From NCBI GenBank assembly GCA_017744915.1, contig JAGIAH010000002.1, positions 372,001-436,000 on the forward strand: a stretch of DNA of 64,000 nucleotides, read 5' to 3'. This document shows, one piece after another, positions 28,675 through 64,000 of this stretch (positions are counted from its first letter, which is position 1; each line of letters begins with the position of its first letter). The notes beneath the pieces were generated by a model. The model saw only the letters and a list, made by a program, of their open reading frames with translations, was not told the origin of the DNA and searched no databases. This DNA comes from Agrobacterium tumefaciens. Lineage in GTDB: Bacteria; Pseudomonadota; Alphaproteobacteria; Rhizobiales; Rhizobiaceae. The position numbers and the translations under genes were made by a program.

Positions 28675-28695
28675 TGGTGACTCCAGAAACGGAAA

Positions 28696-28719
28696 CTGCG
28701 CGGCTTGAAAGCCGCGCAG
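28696..28719 (-). terminator. Hairpin between the receptor and binding-protein genes
   Basis: Perfect 9-bp arms CTGCGCGGC/GCCGCGCAG with a 6-base loop, 8 bases after the receptor stop, followed on the minus strand by TTTCCGTTTC. It could partly terminate transcription so that the receptor is made in excess over the importer. Confidence 0.55.
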
Positions 28720-28727
28720 GCAACGGA

Positions 28728-31166: not shown

Positions 31167-31214
31167 TGAAGCCCCCGCGCCCGTGCGCTCAATACGCACG
31201 TTTCAGAACAATAT

Positions 31215-31230
31215 GACGGTAACAACCGTC
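31215..31230. promoter_or_regulatory. Dyad in the receptor promoter/leader
   Basis: GACGGT-N4-ACCGTC perfect inverted repeat about 50 bases upstream of the receptor start. It could be an operator or a leader hairpin. It is not an IRO (TGA-N9-TCA) box. Confidence 0.4.
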
Positions 31231-31305
31231 CGCTCATGCTGAAGACGATCAAAGGAGGCGTAATGGGACTCTCAAGTCGAAAAAAAATTATGGAAAATAA
31301 ACATT

Positions 31306-32972: not shown

Positions 32973-32986
32973 CGGGGCTCCTTGTC

Positions 32987-48300: not shown

Positions 48301-49573
48301 GGATCTCGTTTTTGGCCGCACCATCGGGCAGGCGCAGGGTTTCGATTTCAAGGCCGTCGAGTTCGGGCAACCTGGCCAGATTGTGCTGAAGATCGAACTT
48401 GGCCTGAAACAGCGGCGTCATTTCGGAAAGGGAGCGTTTCGGATTGAGAACCTCGACGATCCGCTCATAAGGCACGTCCTGGTTCGCAAGGCCTGTACGG
48501 ACGGTCTCGCTGACGCGCTGCAGCAGAACGGAAAAATCCGGATTTCCCGCAAGATCGGTGCGCAGCACCAGTGTGTTGACCAGCGGGCCGATCATCGCCT
48601 GGGTTTCCGGCCTGTCGCGGTTTGCGACTTCACTCCCCACCACTATGTCATCGCTGTCGCAATAGAGATGGAGCACGAGTTTGAAAGCGGAGAGGAGCAG
48701 AACGAACAGGCTTACATTATGGCCCCGCGCCAGCGCCCTTAGTTTTCCTGAAAGTTCGGGATCGACCGACACGGCAAATTGCGCGCCGAGAAAACTCGCA
48801 ATCGCCGGGCGCGGACGGTCGAATGGAAGGTCGAGCACCGGCAGTTCGCTTGCAAGCGCCGTCTTCCAGTAGGAGAGCTGGTTTTCGAGGACCGGGCCAC
48901 GCAGCATTTTCCCCTGCCAGATCGCCCAGTCGGCATATTGAACGCGAATATCCGGCAGCGGATGGGACTGTCCGGTTTTCCCCTTGTAGAAGCCCGCCAG
49001 ATCGCGGGCGAGCACCGTCATGGACCAGCGATCCCCGGCGATGTGATGCAGGCCGACCGCCAGCAGATGATCTTCGGTGGACAGGCGAACCAGCATTGCA
49101 CGCAATTGCGGGCGGCTCAGGTCATAGGGTTCCGAAAGCCGTTGCAGGATGTGCTGACGGGCATTGGCTTCCGGGTCAGTATCCTGCCCAAGGTCGAGGA
49201 ATTCGATGGCTGCGTCGCCATCGATCAGAATATCTTGTTGCGGAAAACCGTCCGCGCCGGGAATGAAGCGCGTTCGCAGCGGCTCATGCCGTTTGACGAC
49301 ATTTGCCAGCGCCTCTTCCAGCGCCATCCTGTCGAGCTTTCCGCGAAACCGCAGGACGCTGCGCATATTGTAGGCCGTGCTGTCCGGTTCAAGCTGCTGC
49401 ATGAACCACAGGCGCTGCTGTGCGAAGGACAGCGGACGGTCGCCATCACCGTCTTCACGTCCGGGAATGACGGAGTCGAGAGCCGATTGATAACCCCGCT
49501 CGGCAAGACGCTGTTCTATGAGGCGGCGGCGCTCGGGCGAAAGGTTCGCGAGTTTGGCGTAGAATTCGTTCAT
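42377..49573 (-). CDS. NRPS, C-A(Ala)-PCP-Cy-A(Cys)[Ox insert]-PCP
   Basis: 2398 residues. C1 about 46-480 (HHIAGDR near 176), A1 core near 641, PCP1 near 1031, heterocyclisation domain from 1094 (FPLTDIQHAYWIGR; active site DVLIGD near 1224), A2 core near 1682. An FMN oxidase of the McbC/SagB type, about 1990-2210, is inserted before the A10 motif (near 2260). PCP2 near 2315 (GGDSLT). Pocket reading: A1 D-L-F-N-N-A-L-T-Y-K = Ala; A2 D-L-Y-N-M-S-L-I-W-K = Cys. Predicted chemistry is Ala then Cys, cyclised to thiazoline and oxidised to thiazole. The start overlaps the PKS stop by 4 bases. Confidence 0.96.
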   Translation of the reverse strand: MNEFYAKLANLSPERRRLIEQRLAERGYQSALDSVIPGREDGDGDRPLSFAQQRLWFMQQLEPDSTAYNMRSVLRFRGKLDRMALEEALANVVKRHEPLRTRFIPGADGFPQQDILIDGDAAIEFLDLGQDTDPEANARQHILQRLSEPYDLSRPQLRAMLVRLSTEDHLLAVGLHHIAGDRWSMTVLARDLAGFYKGKTGQSHPLPDIRVQYADWAIWQGKMLRGPVLENQLSYWKTALASELPVLDLPFDRPRPAIASFLGAQFAVSVDPELSGKLRALARGHNVSLFVLLLSAFKLVLHLYCDSDDIVVGSEVANRDRPETQAMIGPLVNTLVLRTDLAGNPDFSVLLQRVSETVRTGLANQDVPYERIVEVLNPKRSLSEMTPLFQAKFDLQHNLARLPELDGLEIETLRLPDGAAKNEIRFNLEDNDPDIGGKIEYATDLFNEETIAAIWRRFEHVLRTIVEDPARRLSEFSLLSNDEQRGQISRSAGQELTIEGLCLHATLTAQAARSPEKSAVASEEGNLTYRALDQRSDAIAAALAAGGFGRGSIVGVCMRRTPDLLAALFGVLKTGAAYVPLDPDYPSERLAFIAQDAAIRVVLTDSDRLAFDAAEDLALLEVGKLPDAAFTPTHTSGLADLAYIIYTSGSTGRPKGVAITHGNAAARMQWTAGNFTGDELASVLASTSVCFDLSIFEIFGTLSCGGQVVLANTLFDVPRLQDVAEINLINTVPSLLREYLRHDTLPKSVRAINLAGEPLPPVLLEELAQKAPQARIHNLYGPSEDTTYSTGTIVCAGGDERTVPIGTPLPGTQAYVLDRAGRLRPDGLAGELYLGGAGVTRGYLRRPGQTAERFVPDAFSGRSSAYLYRTGDRVRRRADGMLEFHGRLDNQVKIRGLRIETGEIEHRLEDIDGIDEAVVAVIGDEASPDRQLAAYISLDAGRHLSADDIRTTLAKHLPSHLVPALWTILSAMPHLPNGKIDRNALRSLEISAPGGSGTAPRNDLEQKLAAIWQDVLQTGVTDVERSFFEMGGHSLLAIRIIARIKADFGVSLPLKAIFETPTIAQLANRLENAAEDVAQADGHAVIHDPENRHEPFPLTDIQHAYWIGRNQGFELGSVGSHGYREFDIDNLDTDALENAINDLVARHDMLRAVVDPDGRQRVLADVPHYAMPVADLRAAADRATRLIDIRNRLSHNIFKADRWPLFHIEAARLDEKTTRLFVSFDVLIGDAWSLKLMGSELAALMQKRALPEIGLTFRDYVLFERSAHNSAAYKRAKEHWSARIATLPASPDLPLACNPSQIEHPRFTRRRGRLAAKDWSRFKELAQSAGLTPTAAIMTIFAEVLARWSRRQEFTLNLTVFNREPVHQDVEKIVGDFTASLLLGLDFSARADFTTRAQQVQLRLMEDLEHRLFSGVSVLRELAKQNGRSGGALMPVVFTSVLGQTAKDDNAPRLDTRLVDSVSQTPQVYLDHQVSEDAGDLVYNWDAVEELFPPSMLDMMFAAYETLLRALVSDDAAWQAEPAIVDCRAFETLNNRAKIALPDDTRLLHEAFFLRATESPEKIAVCAQGVELTYGQVAERALALAANLQAAGAGPNDRVAVSLPKGANQVIACLGILASGAAYVPVDPDLPAERRFELVEDTAADLVIAEGGDWPQRVTVIAVPENGGARPSPSAAVPSDLAYIIFTSGSTGKPKGVMIDHRGALNTILDINLRFGVCAEDRVFALSSLSFDLSVYDIFGPLAVGGAIVMPVREEVSDSARWMKLLLQHRVTVWNSVPALAQLLLAELPALREKPPLRLIMMSGDWIPVSLPPTLKAHLPNADLISLGGATEASIWSVFHPIGEALPGWTSIPYGKPLANQRWYVLDDQGRPCPPWVTGRLFIGGIGVARGYWGRPQLTADRFIPDSFADEEDAESGALLLYDTGDLGRLRPEGLLEFLGREDFQVKVNGFRIELGEIETALQQNENVAEAVVTTVGQPPALVAYIVADTTGSLIGKLEAKTARSGAGGLHYAGRSIDLSSPEGLIHEAIARQSHRRFLPAPAELPKIGHLLASIQAFEMPGTPLKKALYPSAGGIYPVQTYILVREGRIEGLSAGWYRHHPAEHRLEFLKDVSQEQIDAIAGKSDDIVGQCAFLVVFIGRKAAMARSYGEKSRDFCLLEAGHMAQVMMMHAPRLDIGLCAAGGADLSAMASALATEADEEPLYVLAGGTIDPAWSTQWQASVQMRGETLSERLRAFLAAKLPAYMVPREFVIMDRLPLSANGKVDRKALPAPGTRARNAVAPATASEAALLAIWHELLANDNAGVEDNFFEAGGDSLTIMQLLSRIRQEFSVHLTLAQLFGATTVKAQSELLGSLSPSVSDAVETGISPVVAGASVNDLSESDVDRMLEQLLSSQKD

Positions 49574-52500
49574 CGTGCTTCTGCTCCTCCAAGTGCGCTC
49601 CGGACCTCACTGTCGGAAAGGCCTTCGATTTCCATCAGCAGCGCCGCCATCTCGTCCAGGTCGCCCTCATCGGGCATATGGGCGGCGATCATGCTCGCCA
49701 CGCGGGCGACGGTGGGGTTTTCGAAGAGGAGTTCACGCATTTCGATTTTGACCGGGAATGTTTCCCTCAGTTTGGCGACGACCCGGATGGCCAGAAGCGA
49801 GTGCCCGCCCAGCTCATAAAACCCGTCATCGGCACCGATCCCGCTCACACCGATCAGCTCTTCGAAAATGCCGGCGACCGTGGTTTCGATCCCCGTTCGC
49901 GGGGCGACGAAAGGCGTGGACATTGCCGGTCTGGAACGGCCCGCAACCGGAGCTTTCGGGAGCGGCGTGCTTTTGCCGGAGGCCGGCGTCACGGTGATGT
50001 CGCTGCGGGACATCATCGTTGTGCCGGTAATGCCGTTCTCGATGATCTTTTTCGTCAGGCTCCAGGCATCCTCCGAGCTCACCGCATAGGCATTGGTGTC
50101 GAGCGAAGAGCGTTTGCCGGCGGCCAGGACATCGATGAGCGGATAGCCGATGGCGAACCAGGGCATGCGTGTGGCGCGTGATTGGGCCGCAACAAGCAGC
50201 TCCACCGCCTGGTATCCCGACGTATAGGCGGCGAGCCCGACGCCACCGATGACGGTGGCGAGCGATGACTGGATGCAGCAGAAGCCCGCGCGGCGTTGTT
50301 CCATGGCCTGAATGAGCGCCCGTAACGGCGTGATGCGAACCGCTTCATTATAGGTGAGATGGGTTTCATCCATCATGGAAAGGGGCGCTGCCGCGTGCCG
50401 GTTTGCCTGAGGCATGCTCAGGAAAATCCCGTCGACCCGGCCATGTGTCGATACCACCTCATCCAGTGCGGCGCCGACCGCAGCCGCATCATTGCAGTCG
50501 ATCCGGCGGGTATCGAGGCCTACCCCCGAAAAAGTGGCGGCTTCTGCCTCTTGGGTGGATTGCAGCACGGTCAGGCGCGTGCCGGAAATTTTCGCCAGAT
50601 GATCCAGCCAGACGGTGCCGACGCCTTCGGCGATATTTCCGATCACGACATAAACGCCGTTTTTTCGCAGCCGGGTCGATGCCTGCGGTTCAGGCAGGTC
50701 AAGCGGCGCAAATCCATGCGACCACCGATGCGGGCCTCTTAGGGCGACCACCGGGCGGTTGCCGCCGAACTCCGCAAAAAGGCGATCGGCAACCGCCGCG
50801 TCCGCCATGTCCTGCGCGACGGCGATGTCGATATGTCTGCACGTCAGGTCTTCATATTCCTGACCGGCAACCTTCAGAATTCCCGGCAACCGCGACTGGA
50901 GCTCGTTGAGGCTCTCCAGGCCTGTGATATCCGTTGCCCCATGGGTGACCAGTGTGAGCGTGGTTGTATGCCCACGGGCGGCGAGCGCCCGCACGAGATT
51001 GAGCAAAGTCGTAATCTCGTCCCGTTGGCCGGGCTTCAGGGGCCATAGATAGAGGATATCCTGCGGCAGCGCCCCGCGTTCGCCGAGCGTGTCCAGCAGT
51101 TCGGCGAAATCCGCTGCCGACTGTCCAGCAAGGCTGAAGCAACGGAAGTCGCATTCCTCGAACCTCTCGCCTTCTATGGCGCGATAGACCTGCGCGCCGG
51201 CCCCTTCGAGCCGTGCGGCGAGCGATTTGCCGACGCGTCCTTCATCGAGGATCAGCACCCGGCGATTTCTGCAATCAGCCCCGCTTGCCGGCGGCAGGCG
51301 CTGCCATGTCGGACGATAGATCCTTGCACTGTCGCCGGAGGTCGAAATCAGCGTCTGTTTTTCCGCGGCCTGGCTGGAAATCCAGTAGCGCTGCCGCTGG
51401 AACGGATAGGTAGCCAGCGGCACGCGGTGGCCTTCCTGCGCGGCGGCCCGCCAGTCGAGGTGCCCGCCACTCCGCCAATAATGGCCCTGCGCGGCAAGAT
51501 ATTGGCTTGTCTCGTTCTCCGGGTTGGAGCGGCCGAGGCAGGTTATGAGGCGGTCTTCCGCAATGGCGTGTTGGCTGACCAGACCCGACAATGTCGAGCC
51601 CGGACCGGCCTCGATGAAAACGGCATTTTCCATGCCGAGAAGCGTCCGGGTACCCTCGTCGAAACGCACCGTCCGTTCCAGATGTCTGGCCCAGTAATTT
51701 GGATCCGTCGCTTCGGCGGCGCTCAGCCAGGTTCCCGTCACGTTGGAAATCATCGCAATGGAAGGCGGGGAAAGCTTTACGGCCTGCAATTCCCGGACAA
51801 AATGCGCCGCGGCCTCCGCCATCATCGGCGAATGGAAGGCGTGTCCGGTTTTCAGCCGGCGGGTCACGTGGCGGGTCTGTCTGAGTTCTGCTTCGAGCCT
51901 TGCAACGGCGTCCAAGCTGCCCGAAACAACACTCAGGCCCGGTGCGTTGCTGGCGGCAAGCGCGATGTCGGCGCCCAGCCAACGGTCGATCGGCGTGTCG
52001 GGATGGACGACCGCGAGCATTGCGCCGGGGGCTGCCTGTTGCATCAACCGGCCGCGCGCCACCACAAGCGACAGCGCGGTATCGAGATCGAAGACGCCCG
52101 CCAGGCAGGCCGCCACATATTCGCCAACGCTGTGGCCATGCAGCGCCTGCGGCGTCACACCCTGCGCCATCCATGCCTTTGCAAGGGCATATTCCACGGC
52201 AAACAGCGCCGGCTGGGCGAATTCCGTATGATTGATATCGTCATGTCCGGCAAAGAGATCGGCACGGAAATCGCGTTGCATGATCCCGGCAAGACGATCC
52301 GCGCAGGCATCGAAAGGCGTGCGGAAAAGCTCCACCCGGTCATAAAGGTCTCTGCCCATACCGGCATATTGGCTTCCCTGTCCCGGAAACAGGAATACCG
52401 GTGAGGGTGCGCTGCCGGCAACGGATGGCTTTTCCCCAGCAAGGCGACGTAGTTCTGTGACGGCCGACGCCATATCATCGGCAACCAGAGACTGGCGGTG

Positions 52501-54003
52501 GCTGAAGGCCTTACGGCCACTACGCAGCGTGAAGGCAACGTCCTCAAGCGAAAGGTCGGGTTGCGTTTCGAAAGCTTTCGCCTGTGCCGAAAGCAATTCC
52601 GAGAGGGCCGTTGCATTGCGCGCGGAAAAGACCAGAAGCTGCGGCGATGCCGGTTGTGTCTTCCGCCTCGTGCGCGCTTCCGCCGGCGCCTCTTCCAGCA
52701 CCACATGCGCATTCGTTCCGCCGATACCCAGCGAGCTGATGCCCGCTCTTCTGGGGTTTTCAAGAGCAGTCCAATCCCGCAATGCCGTATTCACCTCAAA
52801 GGGGCTCGCCGGGAAATCGATCTTCGCATTTGCCTGTTTGAAATGAAGGCTTGCGGGAATTTTGCCGTGCTTCAGGCAAAGCACGGTCTTGATGAAACCG
52901 GCAATTCCTGCAGCCGTATCGAGGTGGCCGATGTTGGTTTTCACGGAGCCGATTGCGCAATATCCGCTGCGCGGCGTCGTCTTGCGAAAGGCCTGCGTCA
53001 GGGCCGCAATCTCGATGGGGTCGCCCAGCGATGTTCCCGTGCCATGCGCCTCGATGTAACCGATGGAATCGGCCGATATTCCCGCAGCCGCATGGGCCTC
53101 GCTGATGACCATGGCCTGGCTGTCCACCTGTGGCGCGGTAAAGCTCGCCTTCAGCGCGCCGTCATTGTTGATGGCCGAGCCAATGATGACGGCCTCTATC
53201 GTGTCGCCGTCGGCAAGCGCGTCTTCAAGACGCTTGAGCACGACGACACCGACGCCGCTGCCGGGAACGGTTCCGGCGGCCTCCGCATCGAAAGCCCGGC
53301 AATGGCCGTCCGGAGACAATATCCCGCCTTCGCGCGCCACATATCCGTGTGAACGGGAAACCGTTACGCCGCCCGCGAGCGCAATATCGCATTCGCCTGC
53401 AATGAGGCTCTGCGCCGCGACATGCACGGAAACCAGCGACGAAGAGCAGGCGGTTTGCACCGTCATAGCCGGTCCACGCAGATTGAGTTTGTAAGCCGTG
53501 CGCGTCGCCAGAAAATCCTTGTCGTTGGCGACGAACAGTTCAAAGGGGCTGATCGATTGACGCACCGCTGCATTGGCATGCAGGTTCAGAAGATAGGTAT
53601 TGAAGCCGCTCGAGGCATAGACGCCGATGGAGCCGTCGAAGGTGTCGCCCTGATATCCCGCGCGCTCCAGCGCCGCCCAGGCGCATTCGAGAAACAGGCG
53701 CTGCTGCGGGTCGAGGATTTCCGCCTCGCTGGGGCTGTAACCGAAAAATTCGGCGTCGAACTGGTCAGCCCCCTCCAGCGGCGCGGAAGCGCGCACGAAA
53801 TCGGGGTCGGTCAACTGTTCGGGCGGGACACCCAGCGCGACGAGTTCCTCGTCGGTCCATTGCTTGACCGACTCCCGGCCATTGACCAGATTGTCCCAGA
53901 AGCTTTCGATATCCGAAGCTCCCGGAAACCGGCCTGCCATACCTATGACGGCGACCCGAAAGGCGTTCCGATCCTGGTTTGAAGCGCTGGTATAGTCGGA
54001 CAT
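49570..54003 (-). CDS. Type I PKS module, KS-AT-KR(degenerate)-ACP
   Basis: 1477 residues. KS about 15-440 with TACSSS (Cys near 182), EAHGTGT and KTNIGHLDTA; AT about 520-830 with GHSVGEY (near 623) and HAFHS (near 720), the malonyl-CoA pattern. KR-like region about 910-1330. ACP near 1400 (YELGGHSLLAIRV). The KR nucleotide motif reads VIGNIAEGVG instead of TGGxGxxG; Ser and Tyr are present, but the triad Lys is missing and the expected Asn is Tyr (AYTSGY). A beta-keto product is therefore likely. It adds one malonate unit, probably feeding the Ala module encoded next. Confidence 0.95.
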   Translation of the reverse strand: MSDYTSASNQDRNAFRVAVIGMAGRFPGASDIESFWDNLVNGRESVKQWTDEELVALGVPPEQLTDPDFVRASAPLEGADQFDAEFFGYSPSEAEILDPQQRLFLECAWAALERAGYQGDTFDGSIGVYASSGFNTYLLNLHANAAVRQSISPFELFVANDKDFLATRTAYKLNLRGPAMTVQTACSSSLVSVHVAAQSLIAGECDIALAGGVTVSRSHGYVAREGGILSPDGHCRAFDAEAAGTVPGSGVGVVVLKRLEDALADGDTIEAVIIGSAINNDGALKASFTAPQVDSQAMVISEAHAAAGISADSIGYIEAHGTGTSLGDPIEIAALTQAFRKTTPRSGYCAIGSVKTNIGHLDTAAGIAGFIKTVLCLKHGKIPASLHFKQANAKIDFPASPFEVNTALRDWTALENPRRAGISSLGIGGTNAHVVLEEAPAEARTRRKTQPASPQLLVFSARNATALSELLSAQAKAFETQPDLSLEDVAFTLRSGRKAFSHRQSLVADDMASAVTELRRLAGEKPSVAGSAPSPVFLFPGQGSQYAGMGRDLYDRVELFRTPFDACADRLAGIMQRDFRADLFAGHDDINHTEFAQPALFAVEYALAKAWMAQGVTPQALHGHSVGEYVAACLAGVFDLDTALSLVVARGRLMQQAAPGAMLAVVHPDTPIDRWLGADIALAASNAPGLSVVSGSLDAVARLEAELRQTRHVTRRLKTGHAFHSPMMAEAAAHFVRELQAVKLSPPSIAMISNVTGTWLSAAEATDPNYWARHLERTVRFDEGTRTLLGMENAVFIEAGPGSTLSGLVSQHAIAEDRLITCLGRSNPENETSQYLAAQGHYWRSGGHLDWRAAAQEGHRVPLATYPFQRQRYWISSQAAEKQTLISTSGDSARIYRPTWQRLPPASGADCRNRRVLILDEGRVGKSLAARLEGAGAQVYRAIEGERFEECDFRCFSLAGQSAADFAELLDTLGERGALPQDILYLWPLKPGQRDEITTLLNLVRALAARGHTTTLTLVTHGATDITGLESLNELQSRLPGILKVAGQEYEDLTCRHIDIAVAQDMADAAVADRLFAEFGGNRPVVALRGPHRWSHGFAPLDLPEPQASTRLRKNGVYVVIGNIAEGVGTVWLDHLAKISGTRLTVLQSTQEAEAATFSGVGLDTRRIDCNDAAAVGAALDEVVSTHGRVDGIFLSMPQANRHAAAPLSMMDETHLTYNEAVRITPLRALIQAMEQRRAGFCCIQSSLATVIGGVGLAAYTSGYQAVELLVAAQSRATRMPWFAIGYPLIDVLAAGKRSSLDTNAYAVSSEDAWSLTKKIIENGITGTTMMSRSDITVTPASGKSTPLPKAPVAGRSRPAMSTPFVAPRTGIETTVAGIFEELIGVSGIGADDGFYELGGHSLLAIRVVAKLRETFPVKIEMRELLFENPTVARVASMIAAHMPDEGDLDEMAALLMEIEGLSDSEVRSALGGAEAR

Positions 54004-54040: not shown

Positions 54041-54604
54041 TCACTTGTGGAACGGGCAGCCTTTCTTGGGGGGATCGATCATGCCGAGGCGGCCCCGTTC
54101 AAAACGCTGGAGCGTATCGATCGCCTTCCGGTCGCCGTATCGCAGACTTCCGGCGTCGGAGCCGACGAAACGGGAGCAGACGCCGACGTGGCCTTCCGCC
54201 AGATATTTGTAGGCTGCGACGAATTCCGCATGGGCGTCATGGAGCTCGACCGGCAGGGTGGCGAACAAGTCCTTCATCTCGCGCCAGACCTGGATGAGGA
54301 TCGCGTGATCGAACGACATCAGCCCGCTGAAATCATCGGATTCCACGGAAGGCGGCGTCATGGAGACGCGGATCGTGTTCTCGTAATCCGCTTTGCTGAA
54401 GCTCGCGGCGAGGTCCATGGAGCTGGCGGATGTGCGCAGGAGTACGGCGGCGGCCCGCAATTCCCTGTCCGCTTCGGCGTTGTTACCTTCATGCACCTGC
54501 ATGTTGAAGCGGCGCAGGCAAAGAACCAGCCCCTGCACGTTCATGAAAAACGCCCAGTGGAATTCGCGCCAGATCCGGGATGGCGGCGGGGGAGCAATGG
54601 TCAT
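54041..54604 (-). CDS. Unrecognised 187-aa protein of the siderophore operon
   Basis: Starts MTIAPPPPSRIWREFHWAFF and ends KKGCPFHK. It looks all-helical, with no signal peptide, and has scattered histidines (EFHW, QVHEG, SFDHAI, ELHDAHAEF). By eye, the order of helices around RELRAAAVLLRTSASSMDLA, KADYENTIRVSMTPPSV and DDFSGLMSFDHAI resembles tryptophan 2,3-dioxygenase-type haem proteins, a superfamily that includes tyrosine hydroxylases. That resemblance is weak and unverified. Coupled by ATGA to the gene before it and 37 bases before the PKS, so a tailoring role in the same pathway is likely. No function assigned. Confidence 0.8.
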   Translation of the reverse strand: MTIAPPPPSRIWREFHWAFFMNVQGLVLCLRRFNMQVHEGNNAEADRELRAAAVLLRTSASSMDLAASFSKADYENTIRVSMTPPSVESDDFSGLMSFDHAILIQVWREMKDLFATLPVELHDAHAEFVAAYKYLAEGHVGVCSRFVGSDAGSLRYGDRKAIDTLQRFERGRLGMIDPPKKGCPFHK

Positions 54605-55119
54605 TTTGCACACTCCACGCCGAAGCATCTTGCAAGCAGCCTTGCATGAACCTCAAAACCGTCAAACTGGGCCTTCGCGGCCTTTTCCGACAGGTGGGGT
54701 GCCCGGCAGAAAAGATCGGTGACGGACAGCGCGACCTGCAGGAAGCTGCGCAGCAGGGCGTGCGCGGGCTGGGTTGTGGCAATGCGGTTCACGCGGAAAT
54801 ACCGGTCGTAGTCATTCGCGTGGAAGGATGTCAGCGGCAGGCCGCTGACATCCACGATGCCGGGATCGGATACCGGTTTTTCCATATTGCCGAGGAGTGC
54901 GGCGATACGCGCGCGGCATTCGGGATAATGCAGCGTGAACGCCTCAAGGGCCTCGCAGATAATGTGCTGCAGGCGGGCTTTGTCGTGCTCCTCCGATGCC
55001 ATGACCGGCGCCAGCGCCTCCGGCAGGAGCAGATCGAGAGCTGCGTCTTTCAGAAGCCAGTCCCCGTCCGGTCCGGCATCCTCGTGCCGCACCGGGCTTG
55101 GCCATGGTTGGTCGTCCAT
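54601..55119 (-). CDS. Unrecognised 172-aa protein of the siderophore operon
   Basis: Starts MDDQPWPSPVRHEDAG and ends ARCFGVECAK. Predicted mainly helical, soluble. Notable stretches are EEHDKARLQHIICEALEAF, SFHANDYDRYFRVNR and HALLRSFLQVALSVTDLF. ATG 55119 is preceded by AGGACGAG. It overlaps the 187-residue gene by 4 bases, so the two are probably made in equal amounts and may form a complex. It lies 11 bases after the MbtH gene. I recognise no family. Confidence 0.78.
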   Translation of the reverse strand: MDDQPWPSPVRHEDAGPDGDWLLKDAALDLLLPEALAPVMASEEHDKARLQHIICEALEAFTLHYPECRARIAALLGNMEKPVSDPGIVDVSGLPLTSFHANDYDRYFRVNRIATTQPAHALLRSFLQVALSVTDLFCRAPHLSEKAAKAQFDGFEVHARLLARCFGVECAK

Positions 55120-55130
55120 GGGGTCTCGTC

Positions 55131-55370
55131 CTACTCTTGCGCGCCGGTTGCGTTCGCTGCTTCGCCGTCCATCAACCGCCGCAGGCTCAAGGGGCGCATG
55201 TCGGTCCACTCCACCTCGATGTGGTCGAGGCAGGCCTGCTTCGAGCCGGAAAAGCCGCTCAGGCGCCACCCTGTCGGGACCGCCTTGTAGACCGGCCATA
55301 TCGAATATCGCTCCTCGTCGCTGATCACGACGTTGTACTGCAGGTCTTCAGCCGGTGTCTGGGAACTCAT
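55131..55370 (-). CDS. MbtH-family NRPS accessory protein
   Basis: 79 residues with the full signature: NVVISDEERYSIWPVYKAVP, GWRLSGFSGSKQACLDHIE and WTDMRPLSLR. MbtH proteins bind A domains and enable their folding or activity. ATG 55370 has GGAG 8 bases ahead; an upstream TTG is not convincing. It starts 14 bases after the aminotransferase stop. Probably serves several A domains of the locus. Confidence 0.96.
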   Translation of the reverse strand: MSSQTPAEDLQYNVVISDEERYSIWPVYKAVPTGWRLSGFSGSKQACLDHIEVEWTDMRPLSLRRLMDGEAANATGAQE

Positions 55371-55384
55371 CGTGGTCACTCCGA

Positions 55385-56848
55385 TCAATGTCTGTCGAGA
55401 AGACGGTGGTCCGCCAGAGCCCTCAGGCCTTGCAGAACCGCGTCGTGAAGGAAGGCGATATCGTCATCGCCGTGGGCGGTGGAAAGAAAGCCGCCACGGT
55501 CTCCGGCGCGAAGGTGAATGCCGGAGGTCAAAAGAAGGAAGGAAAGCATGGTGACAGCCAGCGGCGAGATGCGGCTGCGGGCAGCGGATATGGCGAAGAA
55601 CGAACCGAAGCTCATGAGCGCAACGGGCAACCCCGCATCCTTGAGTGCGCCGTTCAGCCGTTCCACGAATGCCTGCGTCCTGGCGTTGAGGCCCTGTTGC
55701 AGGGCCGGTCCTTCCTCCAGCAGCCGCAGTGCGACTGCCTTGGCGGCGGCAAGCGCCAGCGGATGGCGGCAATAGGTGCCGGCAAAGAATGTCGGAGCCA
55801 CTTTCGGGAAAGACCTGTCGCCGTAAGCCCAGGCTCCGCCATCGACGAGGTCCATGAAACGCCCCTTGCCGGCGATGAGCGACAGCGGCAGTCCGCCGCC
55901 GGCGATTTTGCCATAGGTGGCAATATCGGCGTCTATGCCGAAATGGGACTGCGCGCCGCCGGGTGCGACGCGGAAACCGGTTATCATCTCGTCGAATATC
56001 AGTGCGCTTCCGGTTTTTTCGGTCACGCTGCGCAGCTCATGGAGAAATTCGCGGGGCTGCAGCTCCGGGTTACGGCTCTGGACGGGTTCGACGAGCACGC
56101 CGGCGAGACGGTCGCCGTGACGCCTGACATAATCGATGGAGCGCGGATTGCCATATTCCAGCAAAACGATATCGCGGGCGGAGGAGGGTGCTACACCCGA
56201 AAAGCCGGGAATTGCCCTGGTCAGCATCATGCGCTTCAGGAGTGGCTTCAGGGCCACGAGCCAGGCTGGATGAGACCGAAGCAACGCGCCCCTGCGGATA
56301 TATTCAAGTCTCGTGGCCTTGTGCAGGACAGCGTCGATGTGGCCGTGATAGGAACCGGTAAACAGGGCGATCTTGTCCCGCCCCGTTGCGGCGCGCGCTA
56401 TCCGCATGGCCGTTTGCACGGCTTCCGTCCCGGTATTGCTGAATGTGACGCGGTCTTTTCCGGTGATCCGGCAAAACAGCTCCGCGGTCTCGCCGGCCAG
56501 ATCGGATTGCGGCCCGAGCGCAAAGCCCTTTGCCAGCTGAGCTTCGATTGCCGTTCGGACGAAGGACGGATTGTGGCCGAAGAGATTGGTGCCGAGGCCC
56601 ATGAGAATGTCGACATATCTGTTGCCGTCGATATCCTGCAAATGGGCGCCTTCGGCATGGGTGGCGACGATGGGATAAAGCGCCTCCTTGGTCTCAAGCG
56701 TAAACGGAAGGCCGATCGAGCTTTTGTCCGAGAGGAAACGGCGGTTATAGGCGGCGGCGTGCTTCGAGCCCGGTGTCTTGAGATTGAAGCCGGCAACGAT
56801 TTCCGTGACGGGATCGGTCGCAGTGCCGGGATTATTGTGAATATTCAT
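55385..56848 (-). CDS. Class III PLP aminotransferase (glutamate-1-semialdehyde aminomutase-like)
   Basis: 487 residues. DIDGNRYVDILMGLGTNLFGH, FSNTGTEAVQTAMRIARAATG, SYHGHIDAVLH and LIFDEMITGFRV (PLP Asp) are clear; the Schiff-base Lys is in IATYGKIAGGGLPL (near 312). Relatives in NRPS/PKS clusters either aminate a beta-keto thioester (iturin, microcystin type) or aminate an aldehyde released by a reductase domain (myxochelin MxcL type). Its place two genes after the reductase NRPS favours the second. ATG 56848 has AGGAGG 7 bases ahead and overlaps the methyltransferase stop. Confidence 0.92.
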   Translation of the reverse strand: MNIHNNPGTATDPVTEIVAGFNLKTPGSKHAAAYNRRFLSDKSSIGLPFTLETKEALYPIVATHAEGAHLQDIDGNRYVDILMGLGTNLFGHNPSFVRTAIEAQLAKGFALGPQSDLAGETAELFCRITGKDRVTFSNTGTEAVQTAMRIARAATGRDKIALFTGSYHGHIDAVLHKATRLEYIRRGALLRSHPAWLVALKPLLKRMMLTRAIPGFSGVAPSSARDIVLLEYGNPRSIDYVRRHGDRLAGVLVEPVQSRNPELQPREFLHELRSVTEKTGSALIFDEMITGFRVAPGGAQSHFGIDADIATYGKIAGGGLPLSLIAGKGRFMDLVDGGAWAYGDRSFPKVAPTFFAGTYCRHPLALAAAKAVALRLLEEGPALQQGLNARTQAFVERLNGALKDAGLPVALMSFGSFFAISAARSRISPLAVTMLSFLLLTSGIHLRAGDRGGFLSTAHGDDDIAFLHDAVLQGLRALADHRLLDRH

Positions 56849-57741
56849 TCGACGGCCTCCTGTGTGACATCGCGCCCCGCGTGATCGCCGGCGATCTTCG
56901 TGCAAAGGAAATACACCGCCCTCTCATCGGTAACCGGACCGCCATCGGTGCTTCGCAATGTCACGGAAAAGCCGCAGGACTTGAGAAGCTCGGTCACGGT
57001 GTTGAGGTCATGGCCCCATACCGGGTTGGTGACGGAGTGGCGCTGCCAGTTCTTTCCCGGAATGCCGAAGCGGGCGATGAGCCCGAGTCTCTGGCGATTG
57101 GACAGCAATCCGGCTGCCAGCCGGTATGCAGTCTCCGCCGGGGAGAAGCCCGCCGCCTTTGATCGTGTATGAATTTCAACCGTGAACGAGCCCTCGTTCG
57201 CCCGTGAATCATATCGCGGCGTAATCAGCCAGGCGTAGTCATCGGTGAGTTCACCTTCGGCCGGCAGGTCGCGCCAATAACGCGCCATCTGGCCGGGATG
57301 GTTGATGTCGAAGGCAAAAATTCCCCCATCCTTCAGGCTGTGCCGGACGCTTGAAAAGACCTTCTGCAGGTCTTCGGGATTCTGGATGTGGTTGAGTGAT
57401 GCGCTGGTGCAGACCACACCGTCAAACGGCTGATCGAAGGTGAAATCCCTCGCGTCACCGAGGACGAATTCAAGATCGGGCGCGTTGCCGCGGGCATGAT
57501 TTATCATGTCCTGCGAACCATCCAGCCCGGTGACGGCATATCCGCGCGCCGCCATCAGCTTTGCGAGATGTCCCGTTCCGCAGCACAGGTCGAGAAGCGA
57601 AGCGCCGTCGGGCAGCCGGGAAAGGACCGCCCGTGCCAGCGGCTCGATCTTCTGCTCGCTATAGCGTGGGCCAAGCGTGTGGTTGTAGAGCCAGGCCCAA
57701 TGGTCGTAGTTGCTGGCTTCGCTTGATATTGCTGTGCTCAT
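56845..57741 (-). CDS. SAM-dependent methyltransferase (class I)
   Basis: 298 residues. Motif I LLDLCCGTGHLAKLM (near 49), then VTGLDGSQDMINHAR, LGDARDFTF and the post-motif GGIFAFDINHPGQMARYW. This is the general small-molecule N/O-methyltransferase fold; the acceptor is not readable from sequence. It is wedged between the reductase NRPS (4-base overlap) and the aminotransferase (4-base overlap), so I infer that it N-methylates the amine made by those two enzymes. Confidence 0.9.
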   Translation of the reverse strand: MSTAISSEASNYDHWAWLYNHTLGPRYSEQKIEPLARAVLSRLPDGASLLDLCCGTGHLAKLMAARGYAVTGLDGSQDMINHARGNAPDLEFVLGDARDFTFDQPFDGVVCTSASLNHIQNPEDLQKVFSSVRHSLKDGGIFAFDINHPGQMARYWRDLPAEGELTDDYAWLITPRYDSRANEGSFTVEIHTRSKAAGFSPAETAYRLAAGLLSNRQRLGLIARFGIPGKNWQRHSVTNPVWGHDLNTVTELLKSCGFSVTLRSTDGGPVTDERAVYFLCTKIAGDHAGRDVTQEAVE

Positions 57742-60700
57742 TGTTCACCCTGCTTTCGCGCGTCGGCCGACGCCGCGTTCAGAAAATTGGCCCTGGCGAA
57801 GGCGCGCAGATATGTCCGCAACAGCTCGAATGTCAGGGCCGGTTCGCGGAATGGCGCGTCGGACATGGCCTCCTGTGTGAGCTGGCAATCGAAGTTGCGC
57901 GTCTGTTTTTCGTCGCTCTTGCCGGCGGCGGAAGGGGAGCGCAGCAGTCCCAGCAACGGATAGAGCGGGTGGTCGGGCGTTCCGCGCGCCACATCGCTCA
58001 GCATGTCCTGCCATTCCTGCTGCGAAACCCGTTTCAGCTCGATCCCCTCCAGCGCGCAGGCCTCGAAGAGGCGGGCGCTCGAAACGGGGGTGGAGTGAAT
58101 GAGGTGGAAAGCCTGTCCCGCTGAAGCGGGTTTGCCGGAAAGGTGGACGATGGCCCTTGCCACATGGTCGACGGGCAGCATGTCGAGCAATCTTTCGCCT
58201 TCCGGCGCCGTCCCGGTGTAAAGATAGGCCTGAACCAGCCGGCATAATATGTCCGAACTGTTGAAAGCGCCCGTAACGCTGTCACCCGATATCGCGCCCG
58301 GCCGGTAGATCGTGACCGGCAGTCCCCGCCTGCCGGCCTCTTTCACCAGGTGCTCCGCGGCCCATTTGCTCCGGTTGTAGCCGCCGGCGGGTGCGGCAAA
58401 TCCGTCTATGCTCTCCAGTTCGCTGACGGGCCGCGCATCGTCGCCGGAACCGCGGCGCGGCGTGATGGCGCTGAGTGTCGAGATGTAATGAACGGGCCGA
58501 CCGGCTCCGGCGCAGGCCAGTTTGAGAACTTCGCGGGTTCCAAGGACATTGCTCTCGCGCAGCCTCTCATATCGATGCAGGTGGTGAACTTCCGCGCCAT
58601 TGTGGAAAATGCAGTCGGCATTCCGGACGATGTTTTCGTAATCGTCACCGGTAAGCCCGAGGCCCGGTCGGGAAAGCTCTCCCTTTATTATCGCCACCCG
58701 TTCCGTCAACGCGGATTGTGGCAGATCATAGTGCTGGAAGGCCTGTCTTATGCGGCTCATTCCATCCTCGCCGCGCACCAGGCAGGTCACCCTTCTTGTG
58801 GTGTCGCGAAGCAACTCGCGAAGCAGATAGGTCCCGAGAAAACCGGTAGCGCCCGTCAGGAAAACGTGGGCGGTGCTGTCTGCTGCTCTCGCCGCGGCTT
58901 TCGGCCGGATTGCATCGTCAAGCCTTATGTCACGCTTCAGCAGGAGGGCTTCATCGTCATTGCCTTCGCCACCGGCGTCTCTTGTCCGCAGGCGATTTGC
59001 CAGCGCTTCCACCGTGGAGGCGTTGAAGAGATCGAGAACGCTGATGTCGAGCCCGAACTCCTCCTTCGCCACGGCGCAAAGGCGGGTGGCCAGCAGCGAG
59101 TGGCCGCCAAGCGTGAAGAAATCGTCGGTCGCGGCAACCTGATCGATGTTCAGAATTTGCCCGAACGCGCTGGCTATCCGGGTTTCCATCTCGCCTTCGG
59201 GCGCACGGCCATCGGGATTTGTTTCCGCGCGCGGTGCGGGAAGCTTCGAGGGATCGATCTTGCCATTCACGGTCAGCGGCAGCGCCTCGAGCCAGTCGAA
59301 CGTGTCGGGCACAAGAAACTTCGGCAGGCGGTTTGCCAGCCATTGGCGGATATCCGAGGGGGTCGGCCTGATTGCCGCGTCCTGGTCGATCTGAGGTACC
59401 GCATAGGCGGCGAGCCGCTTGCCGCCACGCCCGTCGTCGCGCACCGCCACTGTCGCCGAAACGATTGCCGGGTGGGCGAGCAGGCCGGCCTCGATCTCCC
59501 CGGGTTCGATCCGGTATCCACGAATCTTGACCTGGCTGTCCAGTCGCCCCGAAACGTGAATCCGGCCATCCGGCAGCAATACGGCCCGGTCACCCGTGCG
59601 GTAAAGAACGCCCGCGCGGCCGTCTCTGATAAACGGATCGGGAACGAAACGTTCGGCGGTCAACGCCGCCCTGTCATGATAACCGCGCGCTACGCCGCAG
59701 CCGCCGATATGAAGTTCTCCGGGCACGCCGAAGGGCAGCAATTCGAGGTTGTCGTCCAGCACATAGAGCTGCTTGTTTGCGGCGGGTCTCAAAACCGGCA
59801 CGGCGGGAAGCCCGCCCCCCATATCGACCATGCTGGCGTTGACGGTCGTTTCGGTGGGGCCGTAGGCGTTGATGAAGCGGCGATGTCTTCCCCATCTCTC
59901 GACAAGTTCCGGCATCGGAACCTCGCCGCCGACCAGAACGGTGTGCAGTGACGGCAGATCATCGACCGGCAGGGCGAGCAGGGCCGATGGCGTCATCGTC
60001 AGGTGTGTGACGTGCCGCTCGCGCAGGATATCGGCCAATTCTGCCCCCGGAAGCGTGGCATGTCTGGGCAGGAGGAGAAGTTTGGCGCCGGCGCCGAGGC
60101 TCATGACGAGTTCGGGAATGGAGGCGTCGAAACTGAAGCTGAAGAATTGCAGCACACAATCGCCGGGTTTGACATCGCAAGCCCGGATCTTGTCTCTGGT
60201 CAGGTTGACCAATCCGCTGTGGTCGACGAGGACGCCCTTTGCCTTTCCTGTCGAGCCGGACGTGTAGATCACATAGGCGAGCTGCGAATGACGGGTGACC
60301 GTTTTAAGGTTGTCGGCACGTTCGCTGTCAGGGAATTCCCCATCCAGATCAAGCCGGGCGGCTGTCGTCGGGAGGTCGATCGCGCTGTGGGTGATGACAA
60401 GCCGGGCGTCTGCGTCTGACAGCATGTTGCCGATCCGCTCCGCAGGGTAATCCGGATCGAGAGGCAGATAGGCGCCGCCCGCTTTCCAGACCGCGAGCCA
60501 GGCCACGATCATGTCGAAACCACGCGGCAGCGCGATGGCCACAACCGTTTCCGCGGTGACGCCTTTACGGCGCAGAAGACGGGCCAGTCTGTTTGCGCGC
60601 GCATTGAGCTCGCCATATGTCAGAACGTCATCGTTATCAGCGCGGGGCACAAGCAGCGCCACGGCCTCCGGCGCGCGCGCTGCCTGCGCTTCGAACAGTT

Positions 60701-62306
60701 CATGAAAGAAATGGGAACCGGCGTGCTCCTGCGCCGTGCTGTTGAAGGCGCCGACCCGTTCCTGCTGTTCTTCCTGCGTCAGAAGGGCAAGGGTGGCGAC
60801 CGGCAGGGCGGGATCGGCGACGATGGATTTCAGCAACTGGCGGAAATGCCCGGCAAGCAAACCGATCGTATCGGGGCGGAACAGCGCGGTCTTGTATTCG
60901 ATCGTGCCGGAAAGCCCGGCTTCCGTCTCCCGCAGATCGAGGCAGAGGTCGAGCCTTGAGACCTTGTCCTGGCGGGCAAGCCGGCGCATTTCTAGGCCGG
61001 GAAGCCGGATACGCTCGCGCGGTGCCGCGTCGAGTTGGAATTTTATCTGGAACAGCGGGTGGCTGTCCGGATCGCGTTGTCCGCCGACCATATCGACAAT
61101 CCGCTCGAACGGCATGTCCTGGTGGCTGATGACCCGCTGCAGGGTGGCATGGGTTTCCCGCAGGGCCTTCTCATAATTGCCGAAGGGATTCACATGCGAT
61201 CGGACGGGAAGCGGATTGACGAACAACCCGATCAGTTCCTCCGTTTCCACATGTGGGCGGCTGGCGACGGGCGTGCCGATCACCAGATCGGTCTGCCCGG
61301 TATAGCGGTGGATCAATATGTTGAAGGCGGTAAAGAGCGCGGTGAACAGTGTCGTGCCCTGCGCCGCGGCAATCCTGCGCAGCGCATCGGTCGTTTCCCC
61401 GTCTATCGCGAATTCATGCAGTTCACCCGCATGCCCATGGCCCGCGCTGCGCGCCATATCCGTCACCAGCTGCGTGGTCTGCAGGGGTTGGGAAAGATGC
61501 TGTTTCCAGAAATCATCAAGCGCTCCGGCGGTTTCCCCGGCCAGACGCTCGCGCTGCCACGCGGCAAAGTCGCCATATTGTATCGGCAAGGCAACGTTCA
61601 CGACAGCTTCGCCGGAAACCTCCGCGCTATAAAACGCACCGAGATCCCTCAGCAGAATTTCCGTTGACCAACCGTCGGCGCAGATGTGGTGCAGCGTCAA
61701 AACGAGGACATGGCGGCCTTCACCGCAATTGATGGCGAGAAGGCGAACGGGAGGTTCGATGGCAAGATCGAAGGGCCTGCTCGTTTCCGCGTGGATGATA
61801 TCGTCCATTGCCGCAGCGGCCGGTGAAATTTCCATCAGCGAAAAGGGCGCGTCGCATTCTGCGGATATGGTTTGCTTCGGCACGCCGCGGTCGCTGTAAA
61901 TGCGGGCGCGAAGCACCGCGTGGCGGTTCATGACGCGTGCAAGCGCCACCTTCAGCGCAGCGAGATCGAGAGTGCCGCGGACCTCGAGTGCAATGCATAT
62001 GTGGTGCAGTGCCGAGCCGGGGTAGATCTGGTCGATCAACCACAGTCTTTCCTGTGCGAATGATAGCGGCGGGCAAGCCCCGTCAAGGGGCGGAATGGCA
62101 TTCTGGCCGGGCGCACCGGCATTCGCGTGCGCCATGTTGAGAAAGGCCAGGATATCGTTTTTTCTGGTCCGGATTTCGCTCATCACGGCATCACTCAAGC
62201 GGCCATCAGGGTCCGAACATTTGAGGCTTCCGGCGTCGATCCAGACACGGATATTGTCCCGGTGCAGCCGGGTTATGAGGGTTTCGACAGGCTCGATGTA
62301 ATTCAT
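57738..62306 (-). CDS. NRPS with docking domain and terminal thioester reductase, dock-C-A-PCP-R
   Basis: 1522 residues. N-terminal TubC-type docking domain (about 1-58, MNYIEPVETLITRLHRDNIR); C from about 75 (HHICADG near 207); A core VIYTSGSTGKAKG near 678; PCP GGHSLLATRL near 1068; NAD(P)H reductase from about 1150 (GATGFLG near 1153, catalytic YNRSK near 1309). The pocket reads D-A-P-T-L-G-A-V-N-K, which shares six of ten positions with Tyr/Phe-type codes, so an aromatic residue is only a guess. The R domain should release the chain as an aldehyde or alcohol; this is probably the last module although first in the operon. ATG 62306 has AAGGGG ahead. Confidence 0.95.
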   Translation of the reverse strand: MNYIEPVETLITRLHRDNIRVWIDAGSLKCSDPDGRLSDAVMSEIRTRKNDILAFLNMAHANAGAPGQNAIPPLDGACPPLSFAQERLWLIDQIYPGSALHHICIALEVRGTLDLAALKVALARVMNRHAVLRARIYSDRGVPKQTISAECDAPFSLMEISPAAAAMDDIIHAETSRPFDLAIEPPVRLLAINCGEGRHVLVLTLHHICADGWSTEILLRDLGAFYSAEVSGEAVVNVALPIQYGDFAAWQRERLAGETAGALDDFWKQHLSQPLQTTQLVTDMARSAGHGHAGELHEFAIDGETTDALRRIAAAQGTTLFTALFTAFNILIHRYTGQTDLVIGTPVASRPHVETEELIGLFVNPLPVRSHVNPFGNYEKALRETHATLQRVISHQDMPFERIVDMVGGQRDPDSHPLFQIKFQLDAAPRERIRLPGLEMRRLARQDKVSRLDLCLDLRETEAGLSGTIEYKTALFRPDTIGLLAGHFRQLLKSIVADPALPVATLALLTQEEQQERVGAFNSTAQEHAGSHFFHELFEAQAARAPEAVALLVPRADNDDVLTYGELNARANRLARLLRRKGVTAETVVAIALPRGFDMIVAWLAVWKAGGAYLPLDPDYPAERIGNMLSDADARLVITHSAIDLPTTAARLDLDGEFPDSERADNLKTVTRHSQLAYVIYTSGSTGKAKGVLVDHSGLVNLTRDKIRACDVKPGDCVLQFFSFSFDASIPELVMSLGAGAKLLLLPRHATLPGAELADILRERHVTHLTMTPSALLALPVDDLPSLHTVLVGGEVPMPELVERWGRHRRFINAYGPTETTVNASMVDMGGGLPAVPVLRPAANKQLYVLDDNLELLPFGVPGELHIGGCGVARGYHDRAALTAERFVPDPFIRDGRAGVLYRTGDRAVLLPDGRIHVSGRLDSQVKIRGYRIEPGEIEAGLLAHPAIVSATVAVRDDGRGGKRLAAYAVPQIDQDAAIRPTPSDIRQWLANRLPKFLVPDTFDWLEALPLTVNGKIDPSKLPAPRAETNPDGRAPEGEMETRIASAFGQILNIDQVAATDDFFTLGGHSLLATRLCAVAKEEFGLDISVLDLFNASTVEALANRLRTRDAGGEGNDDEALLLKRDIRLDDAIRPKAAARAADSTAHVFLTGATGFLGTYLLRELLRDTTRRVTCLVRGEDGMSRIRQAFQHYDLPQSALTERVAIIKGELSRPGLGLTGDDYENIVRNADCIFHNGAEVHHLHRYERLRESNVLGTREVLKLACAGAGRPVHYISTLSAITPRRGSGDDARPVSELESIDGFAAPAGGYNRSKWAAEHLVKEAGRRGLPVTIYRPGAISGDSVTGAFNSSDILCRLVQAYLYTGTAPEGERLLDMLPVDHVARAIVHLSGKPASAGQAFHLIHSTPVSSARLFEACALEGIELKRVSQQEWQDMLSDVARGTPDHPLYPLLGLLRSPSAAGKSDEKQTRNFDCQLTQEAMSDAPFREPALTFELLRTYLRAFARANFLNAASADARKQGEQ

Positions 62307-62628
62307 ATGCCGCCCCTTGGCTGCATTGGCGTCACGCAACCCAAGCAACGCTCGGCGCGCCTTTTCAGGTCGGCGTCGAGCGGTAGGGTTTTCATCGCTG
62401 AAACAACTATCAATTGCATTTTCAGTTGCCTGAAGCCGGTCGTCAATTTCAATTTCTTATTCTTGACTAAGCGATTCAAGAATTATATGCAAGAGGTAAT
62501 TGTTGTCATCGACAGGCAGCGGGCAGTGATGCCTGCCGCTGGCGATTGAGTGTGGGCGGTCAGAACGATGAGCATCTTATGGTTGCTTGTCGCGAATATT
62601 GACGGCCAGACGTCAGGAGTTTTTTCAG
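62307..62628. promoter_or_regulatory. Divergent promoter region of the siderophore operon
   Basis: 322 bases between the NRPS (minus) and the acyl-AMP ligase (plus), with no gene. It holds the IRO-type palindrome at 62459-62483 and a GC-rich dyad (CAGCGG...CCGCTG, about 62518-62540). No clear FecI-type -35/-10 pair could be recognised. Confidence 0.7.
62459..62483. promoter_or_regulatory. IRO-type iron box (RirA-like operator)
   Basis: Perfect palindrome ATTCTTGA-N9-TCAAGAAT, containing TGA-N9-TCA, the rhizobial IRO motif linked to RirA repression of siderophore genes. It lies 153 bases upstream of the NRPS start and 146 upstream of the acyl-AMP ligase, so it can serve both divergent transcripts. 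Confidence 0.75.
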
Positions 62629-64000
62629 ATGCAGATCATACCCATGTTCGCTCGAAAACCATCTGGAGAAAGAGATTTTATAACGATAATACATAGGCTT
62701 GATGATGTTGCCTCTACCCGGCCGACGGAGGAGGCGTTTCGTTTTTACCCTGATGATCCAGGAGCGATAGGCGAAAGCCGCAGTGACGGCTGGACATGGG
62801 GAGAATTGAACGCTCGCGTCAAAATTGTTTCCGACGAGATTTCCAGGACGGGTCTTGTCGGGCAGGGCGGCCGGATCCTCATCGTCTATCAGCCTGGCCT
62901 CGCCTTCATCGCAGCCTTCCTCGGATGCCTGCATGCAGGCGCCGTACCGGTGCCGGTTCCGGCGCCGCGGCGAAATGAAGGAATACACCGTTGGTTGCAT
63001 ATTGCGAGAGATGCCGGCATCTCGGGAATTGTCTGCGCCGCCGAATTGAAAGAGCTGCTTGAGCCGCTCCAGAGGGCCGTCGGCCACGGGTTCTGCCTGG
63101 CGCCTTCAGGTGCCGATCCAAATCTTCCGCTTCACGAACTTCCGCCGTCATCGAGCCTGCCTGCCGTTTTCGACGGAAGCCGGATCGCATTCCTGCAATA
63201 TACGTCAGGTTCGACCAGCGATCCGAAAGGCGTCATGGTCACCCATGCGAACCTGATGGCCAACCTGCGGCAGATCAGCCTTGCTTTTCATTATGGCCCG
63301 GAGGACCGGTCTGCGACATGGCTGCCCCATTATCATGATATGGGGCTGATCGACGGAATTCTGTCGCCTATCTTCAACGGATTTCCGGTATCGATCATGG
63401 CGCCGGCGAGCTTTCTCAGGCGTCCGTTGCGGTTCCTCGAGCTGGCGACGCAAAACAGAGCAACGATAATCGGCGGGCCGAATTTTGCCTATGAACATTG
63501 CGCCGATCGTTACAGCGCCGAAGGCGCGGCAGAACTCGATCTCTCCAATATCAGGATAGCCTATAATGGCGCAGAGCCCGTGCGTCCGCACACGCTCAGG
63601 CGTTTCAGCGCCCTGTTTGCGGAACGCGGCTTCCGGCACGAGGCCTTCTACTGCTGCTATGGTCAGGCCGAGGCTACACTTTTCCTGACCGGAAATGCCC
63701 CGTCCGATCCACCGGTTTTGCGACGCTTCGAGCGCGAAACGCTCGCGAAACAGGCAATGGCGCTGCCGCTGCCCGTTGATTCTGGCGAGCATGATGCAAT
63801 CGAGCTGGCGGCCTGCGGCCGTCCCGGAGCGGGTATCGAGATTGTCGTCGTGGATCCCGAAGAAAATCGGCTGCTTGAGGATGCGCAAGTCGGCGAATTG
63901 TGGATTCGCGGTCCGAATGTCACTCCCGGTTATTGGGCGAGGGCCAAAGCAAGCGCGGAAAGCTTCGACCAGACAATTGCCGGTGAGGGCGGCTGGCGCC
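62629..64000 (+). CDS. Fatty-acyl-AMP ligase (FAAL), 3' end outside window
   Basis: Open from ATG 62629 to the window edge (457 codons). AMP-binding motif LQYTSGSTSDPKGVMVTH (near 190), the FAAL-typical WLPHYHDMGLIDGILSPIF, and YGQAEATLFLTG (near 347). FAALs activate a fatty acid as acyl-AMP and hand it to a carrier protein, usually the first step of a lipopeptide. AGGAG lies 9 bases ahead of the ATG. In many systems the ligase is fused to ACP/NRPS modules, which would be beyond the edge. Divergent from the reductase NRPS with the IRO box between them. Confidence 0.93.
   Translation, partial: MQIIPMFARKPSGERDFITIIHRLDDVASTRPTEEAFRFYPDDPGAIGESRSDGWTWGELNARVKIVSDEISRTGLVGQGGRILIVYQPGLAFIAAFLGCLHAGAVPVPVPAPRRNEGIHRWLHIARDAGISGIVCAAELKELLEPLQRAVGHGFCLAPSGADPNLPLHELPPSSSLPAVFDGSRIAFLQYTSGSTSDPKGVMVTHANLMANLRQISLAFHYGPEDRSATWLPHYHDMGLIDGILSPIFNGFPVSIMAPASFLRRPLRFLELATQNRATIIGGPNFAYEHCADRYSAEGAAELDLSNIRIAYNGAEPVRPHTLRRFSALFAERGFRHEAFYCCYGQAEATLFLTGNAPSDPPVLRRFERETLAKQAMALPLPVDSGEHDAIELAACGRPGAGIEIVVVDPEENRLLEDAQVGELWIRGPNVTPGYWARAKASAESFDQTIAGEGGWR

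Follow-up and report, generated by a model that had tools for sequence, protein, structure and literature searches.

Three overlapping genes in a 64,000-nucleotide stretch of Agrobacterium tumefaciens DNA (GCA_017744915.1, contig JAGIAH010000002.1, positions 372,001 to 436,000; hereafter the window) raise the question of which chemical ending they confer on a nonribosomal peptide. They encode a nonribosomal peptide synthetase (NRPS) with a terminal reductase (R) domain, an S-adenosylmethionine (SAM)-dependent methyltransferase and a class III aminotransferase, and a sequence-only reading had proposed that these proteins convert a thioester via an aldehyde and an amine to the precursor of a dimethyl-amino-dihydroxyquinoline (Dmaq) end group. 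We conclude, with a probability of roughly 0.93, that the window carries the fabrubactin (fbn) cluster and that the three genes, together with those for an MbtH protein, FbnL and FbnM, constitute a Dmaq cassette. The Dmaq system is already known from fabrubactin, and the chemistry proposed in the sequence-only reading looks right.

The three genes are transcribed from the minus strand (Table 1) and each neighbouring pair shares 4 bases. In the NRPS, Pfam searches placed TubC_N at residues 7-56, the condensation (C) domain at 80-516, the adenylation (A) domain at 538-877 with its AMP-binding C-terminal part at 937-1016, the peptidyl carrier protein (PCP) at 1043-1106 and NAD_binding_4 at 1150-1386. 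The R domain scored 389 bits against the thioester reductase family TIGR01746 (cut-off 213). Motifs of the C, PCP, R, methyltransferase and aminotransferase units are intact (HHICADG, GGHS, GATGFLG, YNRSK, LDLCCGTG and YGKIAGGG). Coordinates and domain searches therefore agree with the earlier description of the overlapping genes and their domains.

To place the cluster, we compared it with genome G399 of the same genus, which we take to be A. fabrum C58 (hence 'presumed C58'); A. fabrum C58 is the fabrubactin producer. Each of the 21 cluster genes tested has its counterpart, in the same order, on the second contig of presumed C58, at identities of 80.2-96.8%, and the divergent layout is shared. 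The nine-residue A-domain signatures are identical in six of six cases; here A domains were kept at E 1e-10 and more than 250 residues, and pocket positions were mapped by motif, using the positions of the GrsA convention. FbnE-like and FbnG-like proteins, 95.8% and 89.8% identical to the presumed C58 copies, are found in the expected order. In the fbn literature, E denotes a flavin monooxygenase, G a fatty acyl-AMP ligase and L/M a heme peroxidase (PMC12971057, PMC11837247), and these letters match the gene order in the window; the letters FbnH, FbnI, FbnJ and FbnK were assigned from gene order. Since colinearity, identical signatures and fitting gene letters coincide, the window very probably represents the fbn cluster in another Agrobacterium genome, with only ordinary sequence divergence seen between the two. 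Alignment with the C58 fbn genes, the check suggested by the sequence-only reading, thus bore it out against the genome taken for C58. Dmaq biosynthesis has been reported for the fabrubactins (PMC12971057). It is unlikely that the same cassette serves a different product in the species of the window: identities of 80-97% are short of 100%, and in an Allorhizobium S4 relative the middle set of NRPSs differs, but the gene order and all six signatures agree with presumed C58. FbnM was detected in 6 of 39 genomes of the genus, in 6 of 394 sampled genomes of the family (E 0.001; two of the six only 32-35% identical) and in 2 of 397 sampled genomes of the order, the genome of the window being counted each time.

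The same operon continues past the aminotransferase with genes for MbtH, FbnL, FbnM and a polyketide synthase (PKS), all beyond the region covered by the sequence-only reading; starts in this part were placed after an annotated relative. Judging from position and similarity, the two small genes after MbtH are FbnL and FbnM. Whereas SfmD, a 3-methyl-L-tyrosine peroxygenase, is a single chain of 365 residues, the window has two genes. FbnM aligns with the C-terminal half of SfmD (E 3.4e-12), and its residues H100, H139 and C143 correspond to SfmD residues 274, 313 and 317 in its heme motif, which we take to be the heme ligands and thioether cysteine. Both histidines and the cysteine are kept in 34 of 35 alignment rows, and bis-His ligation is reported for the SfmD-type heme. 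A predicted model of FbnL overlays residues 18-165 of SfmD, in the N-terminal half, which is suggestive only. PDB searches with FbnL, both as a single sequence and as a profile, returned nothing useful, as did Pfam searches with FbnL and FbnM at E 10; a close relative of FbnL has the precomputed Pfam label PF27188.1. According to the literature, FbnL and FbnM begin Dmaq synthesis by oxidizing tyrosine to 3,4-dihydroxyphenylalanine (DOPA), and antiSMASH uses the pair for Dmaq detection (PMC12971057). An R domain, a methyltransferase, a class III aminotransferase and a tyrosine hydroxylase, the gene set for Dmaq, are thus clustered in the window.

The A domain of the R-domain NRPS, which forms the last module, has the signature DAPTLGAVN. 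When signatures were compared across loci (A domains kept at E 1e-20 and more than 350 residues), DAPTLGAVN was present in 22 of 22 A domains extracted from loci with both FbnL and FbnM, either fused to R or in the reading frame upstream of it, and in none of the 31 other A domains. The 22 derive from the window, presumed C58 and 20 further loci, and 15 of them lie in the same protein as R; loci L027, L028, L031, L036, L037 and L038 showed no R-linked A domain within the stretch examined. On grounds of orthology, the DAPTLGAVN domain would select DOPA, which the primary fabrubactin paper, Vinnik 2021, reportedly gives as the Dmaq precursor. Among the 31 is the R-domain NRPS of locus L015, which has an FbnM relative without FbnL and shows DPWGLGLID. 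This locus, on plasmid pAB510f of Azospirillum sp. B510 (L015:5012-11429), places the R-domain NRPS beside the FbnM relative, of 354 residues and SfmD-sized, and a methyltransferase, followed by a P450; it is perhaps a saframycin-type cluster.

A scan of genome contigs for FbnM yielded 27 loci with flanks of up to 10 kb per side, less on short contigs. The scan used exact peptide patterns and may miss near genomes; C58 and Anabaena cylindrica were not listed. With profiles built from the window, presumed C58, Allorhizobium S4 and Gloeocapsa, we found FbnL at all 27 loci, MbtH at 26, the aminotransferase at 24, the methyltransferase at 23 and the R domain at 21. Loci truly devoid of the R domain, methyltransferase and aminotransferase would weaken the link to Dmaq. 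Eight of the 13 gaps in these three components were matched elsewhere in the same genome, although the R-domain matches outside the locus in the L036 and L038 genomes could be other R domains. Three gaps fall in an incomplete metagenome-assembled genome (MAG) of 1.4 Mb (L040), in which R and the methyltransferase had no match and the aminotransferase a distant one only, and two on a cut-off contig (L042) that was searched at the locus only. Two of the three candidates for loci lacking the trio, L030 (Pedosphaera MAG, G802:C117) and L041 (Verrucomicrobiales MAG, G804:C113), were ruled out, as MbtH-FbnL-FbnM and the trio lie on separate contigs of the same MAG. The three genes are adjacent in cyanobacterial and proteobacterial loci, in a planctomycete MAG and in the Pedosphaera and Verrucomicrobiales MAGs, and their association with MbtH-FbnL-FbnM is conserved between phyla. 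In the Planctomycetaceae MAG (L037) all six genes occur together, and one border of the stretch takes in the start of an FbnE-like gene. Alignment A3 (28 rows) was made without L021, L023 and L030, A4 (26 rows) without L017, L018, L021, L023 and L042, and A5, used for structure prediction, without L012-L014.

A route to Dmaq by an R domain, an aminotransferase and a methyltransferase had already been proposed in 2014 for anachelin of Anabaena cylindrica PCC 7122, where genes 11-15 are assigned to Dmaq and the legend lists Red, MT, AmT and TyrH; the same account calls a Nodularia cluster the orthologue of siderophore clusters in Nostoc PCC 7120 and A. tumefaciens C58, and at that point does not tie C58 to Dmaq (PMC4247773). 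Compared with the window by published description, anachelin shares this gene set and has a salicylate starter and a Thr-Ser-Ser part of its own. In the window R is fused to C-A-PCP, whereas in three other cyanobacterial loci and in Methyloversatilis (four of four checked) its fusion partners are a CmlA-type diiron hydroxylase and a TubC dock. At these loci the DAPTLGAVN domain lies in a separate NRPS frame upstream.

We infer a route in which amination precedes a double methylation. FbnL and FbnM would hydroxylate tyrosine to DOPA, which the FbnH-like NRPS would load and add to the growing peptide; its R domain would then free the peptide reductively as an aldehyde. The FbnJ-like aminotransferase would convert the aldehyde to a primary amine, and the FbnI-like methyltransferase, whose matches to known N,N-dimethyltransferases are modest, would dimethylate this amine. 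The catechol would then be oxidized to a quinone, and attack by the dimethylamine would form the ring of the dihydroxyquinolinium (Dmaq) end, an iron-binding group. Synteny with fbn, the signatures, FbnL/FbnM and the anachelin precedent all support the aldehyde-amine-methylation route as first proposed. The sequence-only reading had also held that the catechol supplies an iron ligand lacking in the other residues. The catechol remains a likely ligand, but it is not the sole one, because the cluster has an orthologue of FbnE, the proposed maker of two alpha-hydroxycarboxylate ligands (PMC12971057).

Domain searches of the 21 cluster genes revealed no tyrosinase, laccase or P450 domain, so that no ring-closing enzyme is evident. 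Of the other oxidoreductases in the cluster, both the FbnE-like monooxygenase and the FbnO-like nitroreductase insert have counterparts in L012, and FbnE also in Allorhizobium S4 (L013) and at the L037 edge. Neither was found in a 40-kb stretch of Gloeocapsa (L014) that has the full cassette, and they therefore look dispensable for Dmaq; at most other loci the flanks, of 10 kb, end before the corresponding positions. Ring closure would then be spontaneous, catalysed by FbnL/FbnM or carried out by an enzyme encoded elsewhere. A dual role, in which FbnL/FbnM form DOPA and later act as a peroxidase on the dimethylamino-catechol to close the quinoline ring, is a tentative and rather doubtful proposal. 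As the ring hydroxyls are named 6,7-dihydroxy in one source (PMC4247773) and 7,8-dihydroxy in another (PMC12971057), the carbon attacked by the amine looks unsettled, as does any enzymatic steering of the attack.

The lack of an evident ring-closing enzyme would also fit a simpler ending, a (di)methylated or plain tyrosine- or DOPA-derived amine without ring closure, formed as in myxochelin biosynthesis, where MxcL converts an aldehyde to an amine. Both systems have an R-domain NRPS, and the proposed likeness between MxcL and the aminotransferase is one of function. In further agreement with such an ending, a plasmid of Gloeothece citriformis PCC 7424 (L061:15185-21377) encodes an R-domain NRPS with the signature DAEDIGSIV, a stand-alone aminotransferase and then iron ABC transporters, and was not among the listed matches of the FbnM search. 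The signature, we assume, resembles a lysine-type code, and the locus possibly specifies a myxochelin-like ending. The pair of R domain and aminotransferase thus also serves other settings, judging from these sequences. The sequence-only reading had built on this pair and the methyltransferase; its chemistry looks right, but R and aminotransferase by themselves are not sufficient, and since they stand beside a different signature in Gloeothece, it is FbnL/FbnM and DAPTLGAVN that carry the Dmaq assignment. For the window the simpler ending was rejected as highly improbable, with Gloeothece as the contrast: unlike myxochelin, it has a methyltransferase and, in the same operon, FbnL and FbnM, and it is orthologous to fbn, for which a Dmaq-containing product is reported. 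Against the NCBIfam MxcG equivalog the window NRPS scored 678 bits, far under the cut-off of 2300 for membership.

An aminotransferase tree (24 cassette rows and 8 controls, midpoint root) placed 23 cassette rows in one group with support 100/99. Seven of the eight controls fall outside this group, and the Gloeothece control pairs with cassette row L035, next to it. Fragmented sequences (L026, L027, L033 and L042), duplicates (L013 and L014) and the non-duplicate L012 were dropped, and L015, having no aminotransferase match, has no row. The least credible alternative, that R yields an alcohol and the aminotransferase works on a beta-keto acyl chain from a PKS module, draws on the closest solved structures (MxaA for the R domain, the mycosubtilin AMT domain for the aminotransferase) but conflicts with this grouping, with the ketoreductase (KR) present in both PKS modules of the cluster and with the adjacency of the three genes across phyla.

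The remainder of the cluster is likewise colinear with presumed C58. The second module of the FbnO-like NRPS has the heterocyclization (Cy) motif DVLIGDAWS and an A domain with the nitroreductase insert and the signature DLYNMSLIW, which we take to be a cysteine code; this module likely forms a thiazole. The FbnG-like reading frame, whose longest start is TTG at 62587 with an ATG at 62629, extends beyond the window to L009:2881. A scan for the iron box TGA-N9-TCA was not convincing, with 19 matches against 12.5 expected and 6 of 100 shuffles as high. Two such sites, at 62431-62478, fall within the stretch that separates the divergent arms of the cluster, which is weak evidence.

Table 1. Features of the fbn-like cluster in the window and of R-domain fusions at other loci (KS, ketosynthase; AT, acyltransferase; ACP, acyl carrier protein).
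Feature	Position	Strand	Properties or basis
Ferric-siderophore uptake: FhuF-type reductase, TonB receptor, binding protein, two FecCD permeases	25734-32202	-	domains, colinearity
Thioesterase-family protein, probably type II	32241-32990	-	domains, colinearity
FbnQ-like C-PCP protein	32987-34660	-	domains, colinearity
FbnP-like NRPS C-A-PCP-C-A-PCP-C	34665-42371	-	domains, signatures, colinearity
FbnO-like NRPS C-A-PCP-Cy-A(nitroreductase insert)-PCP	42377-49573	-	domains, signatures, colinearity
FbnN-like PKS module KS-AT-KR-ACP	49570-54003	-	domain calls, colinear with presumed C58
FbnM, putative heme subunit, homologue of SfmD C-terminal half	54041-54604	-	96.8% identity to presumed C58 copy
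FbnL, putative partner subunit of Tyr-to-DOPA heme peroxidase	54601-55119	-	90.1% identity to presumed C58 copy
FbnK-like MbtH protein	55131-55370	-	95% identity to presumed C58 copy
FbnJ-like class III aminotransferase	55385-56848	-	487 aa; PF00202 E 2.2e-45; 91.7% identity to presumed C58 copy
FbnI-like SAM methyltransferase	56845-57741	-	298 aa; Methyltransf_25 E 1.4e-20; 88.3% identity to presumed C58 copy
FbnH-like NRPS	57738-62306	-	1522 aa; TubC dock-C-A-PCP-R; 86.7% identity to presumed C58 copy
FbnG-like fatty acyl-AMP ligase and ACP, divergent arm	62629-64000	+	89.8% identity to presumed C58
PKS, FbnE-like monooxygenase and NRPS, downstream of FbnG-like gene	L009:2915-11987		
R-CmlA fusions	L014:12853-15828, L029:3257-6562, L034:2529-5597, L039:3535-6846		

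Overall, a structural prediction made correctly from sequence alone falls within a known siderophore family. FbnL, FbnM and the DAPTLGAVN module provide a compact marker set for finding Dmaq siderophores, and the conserved cassette narrows the question of ring closure to a few testable proteins.

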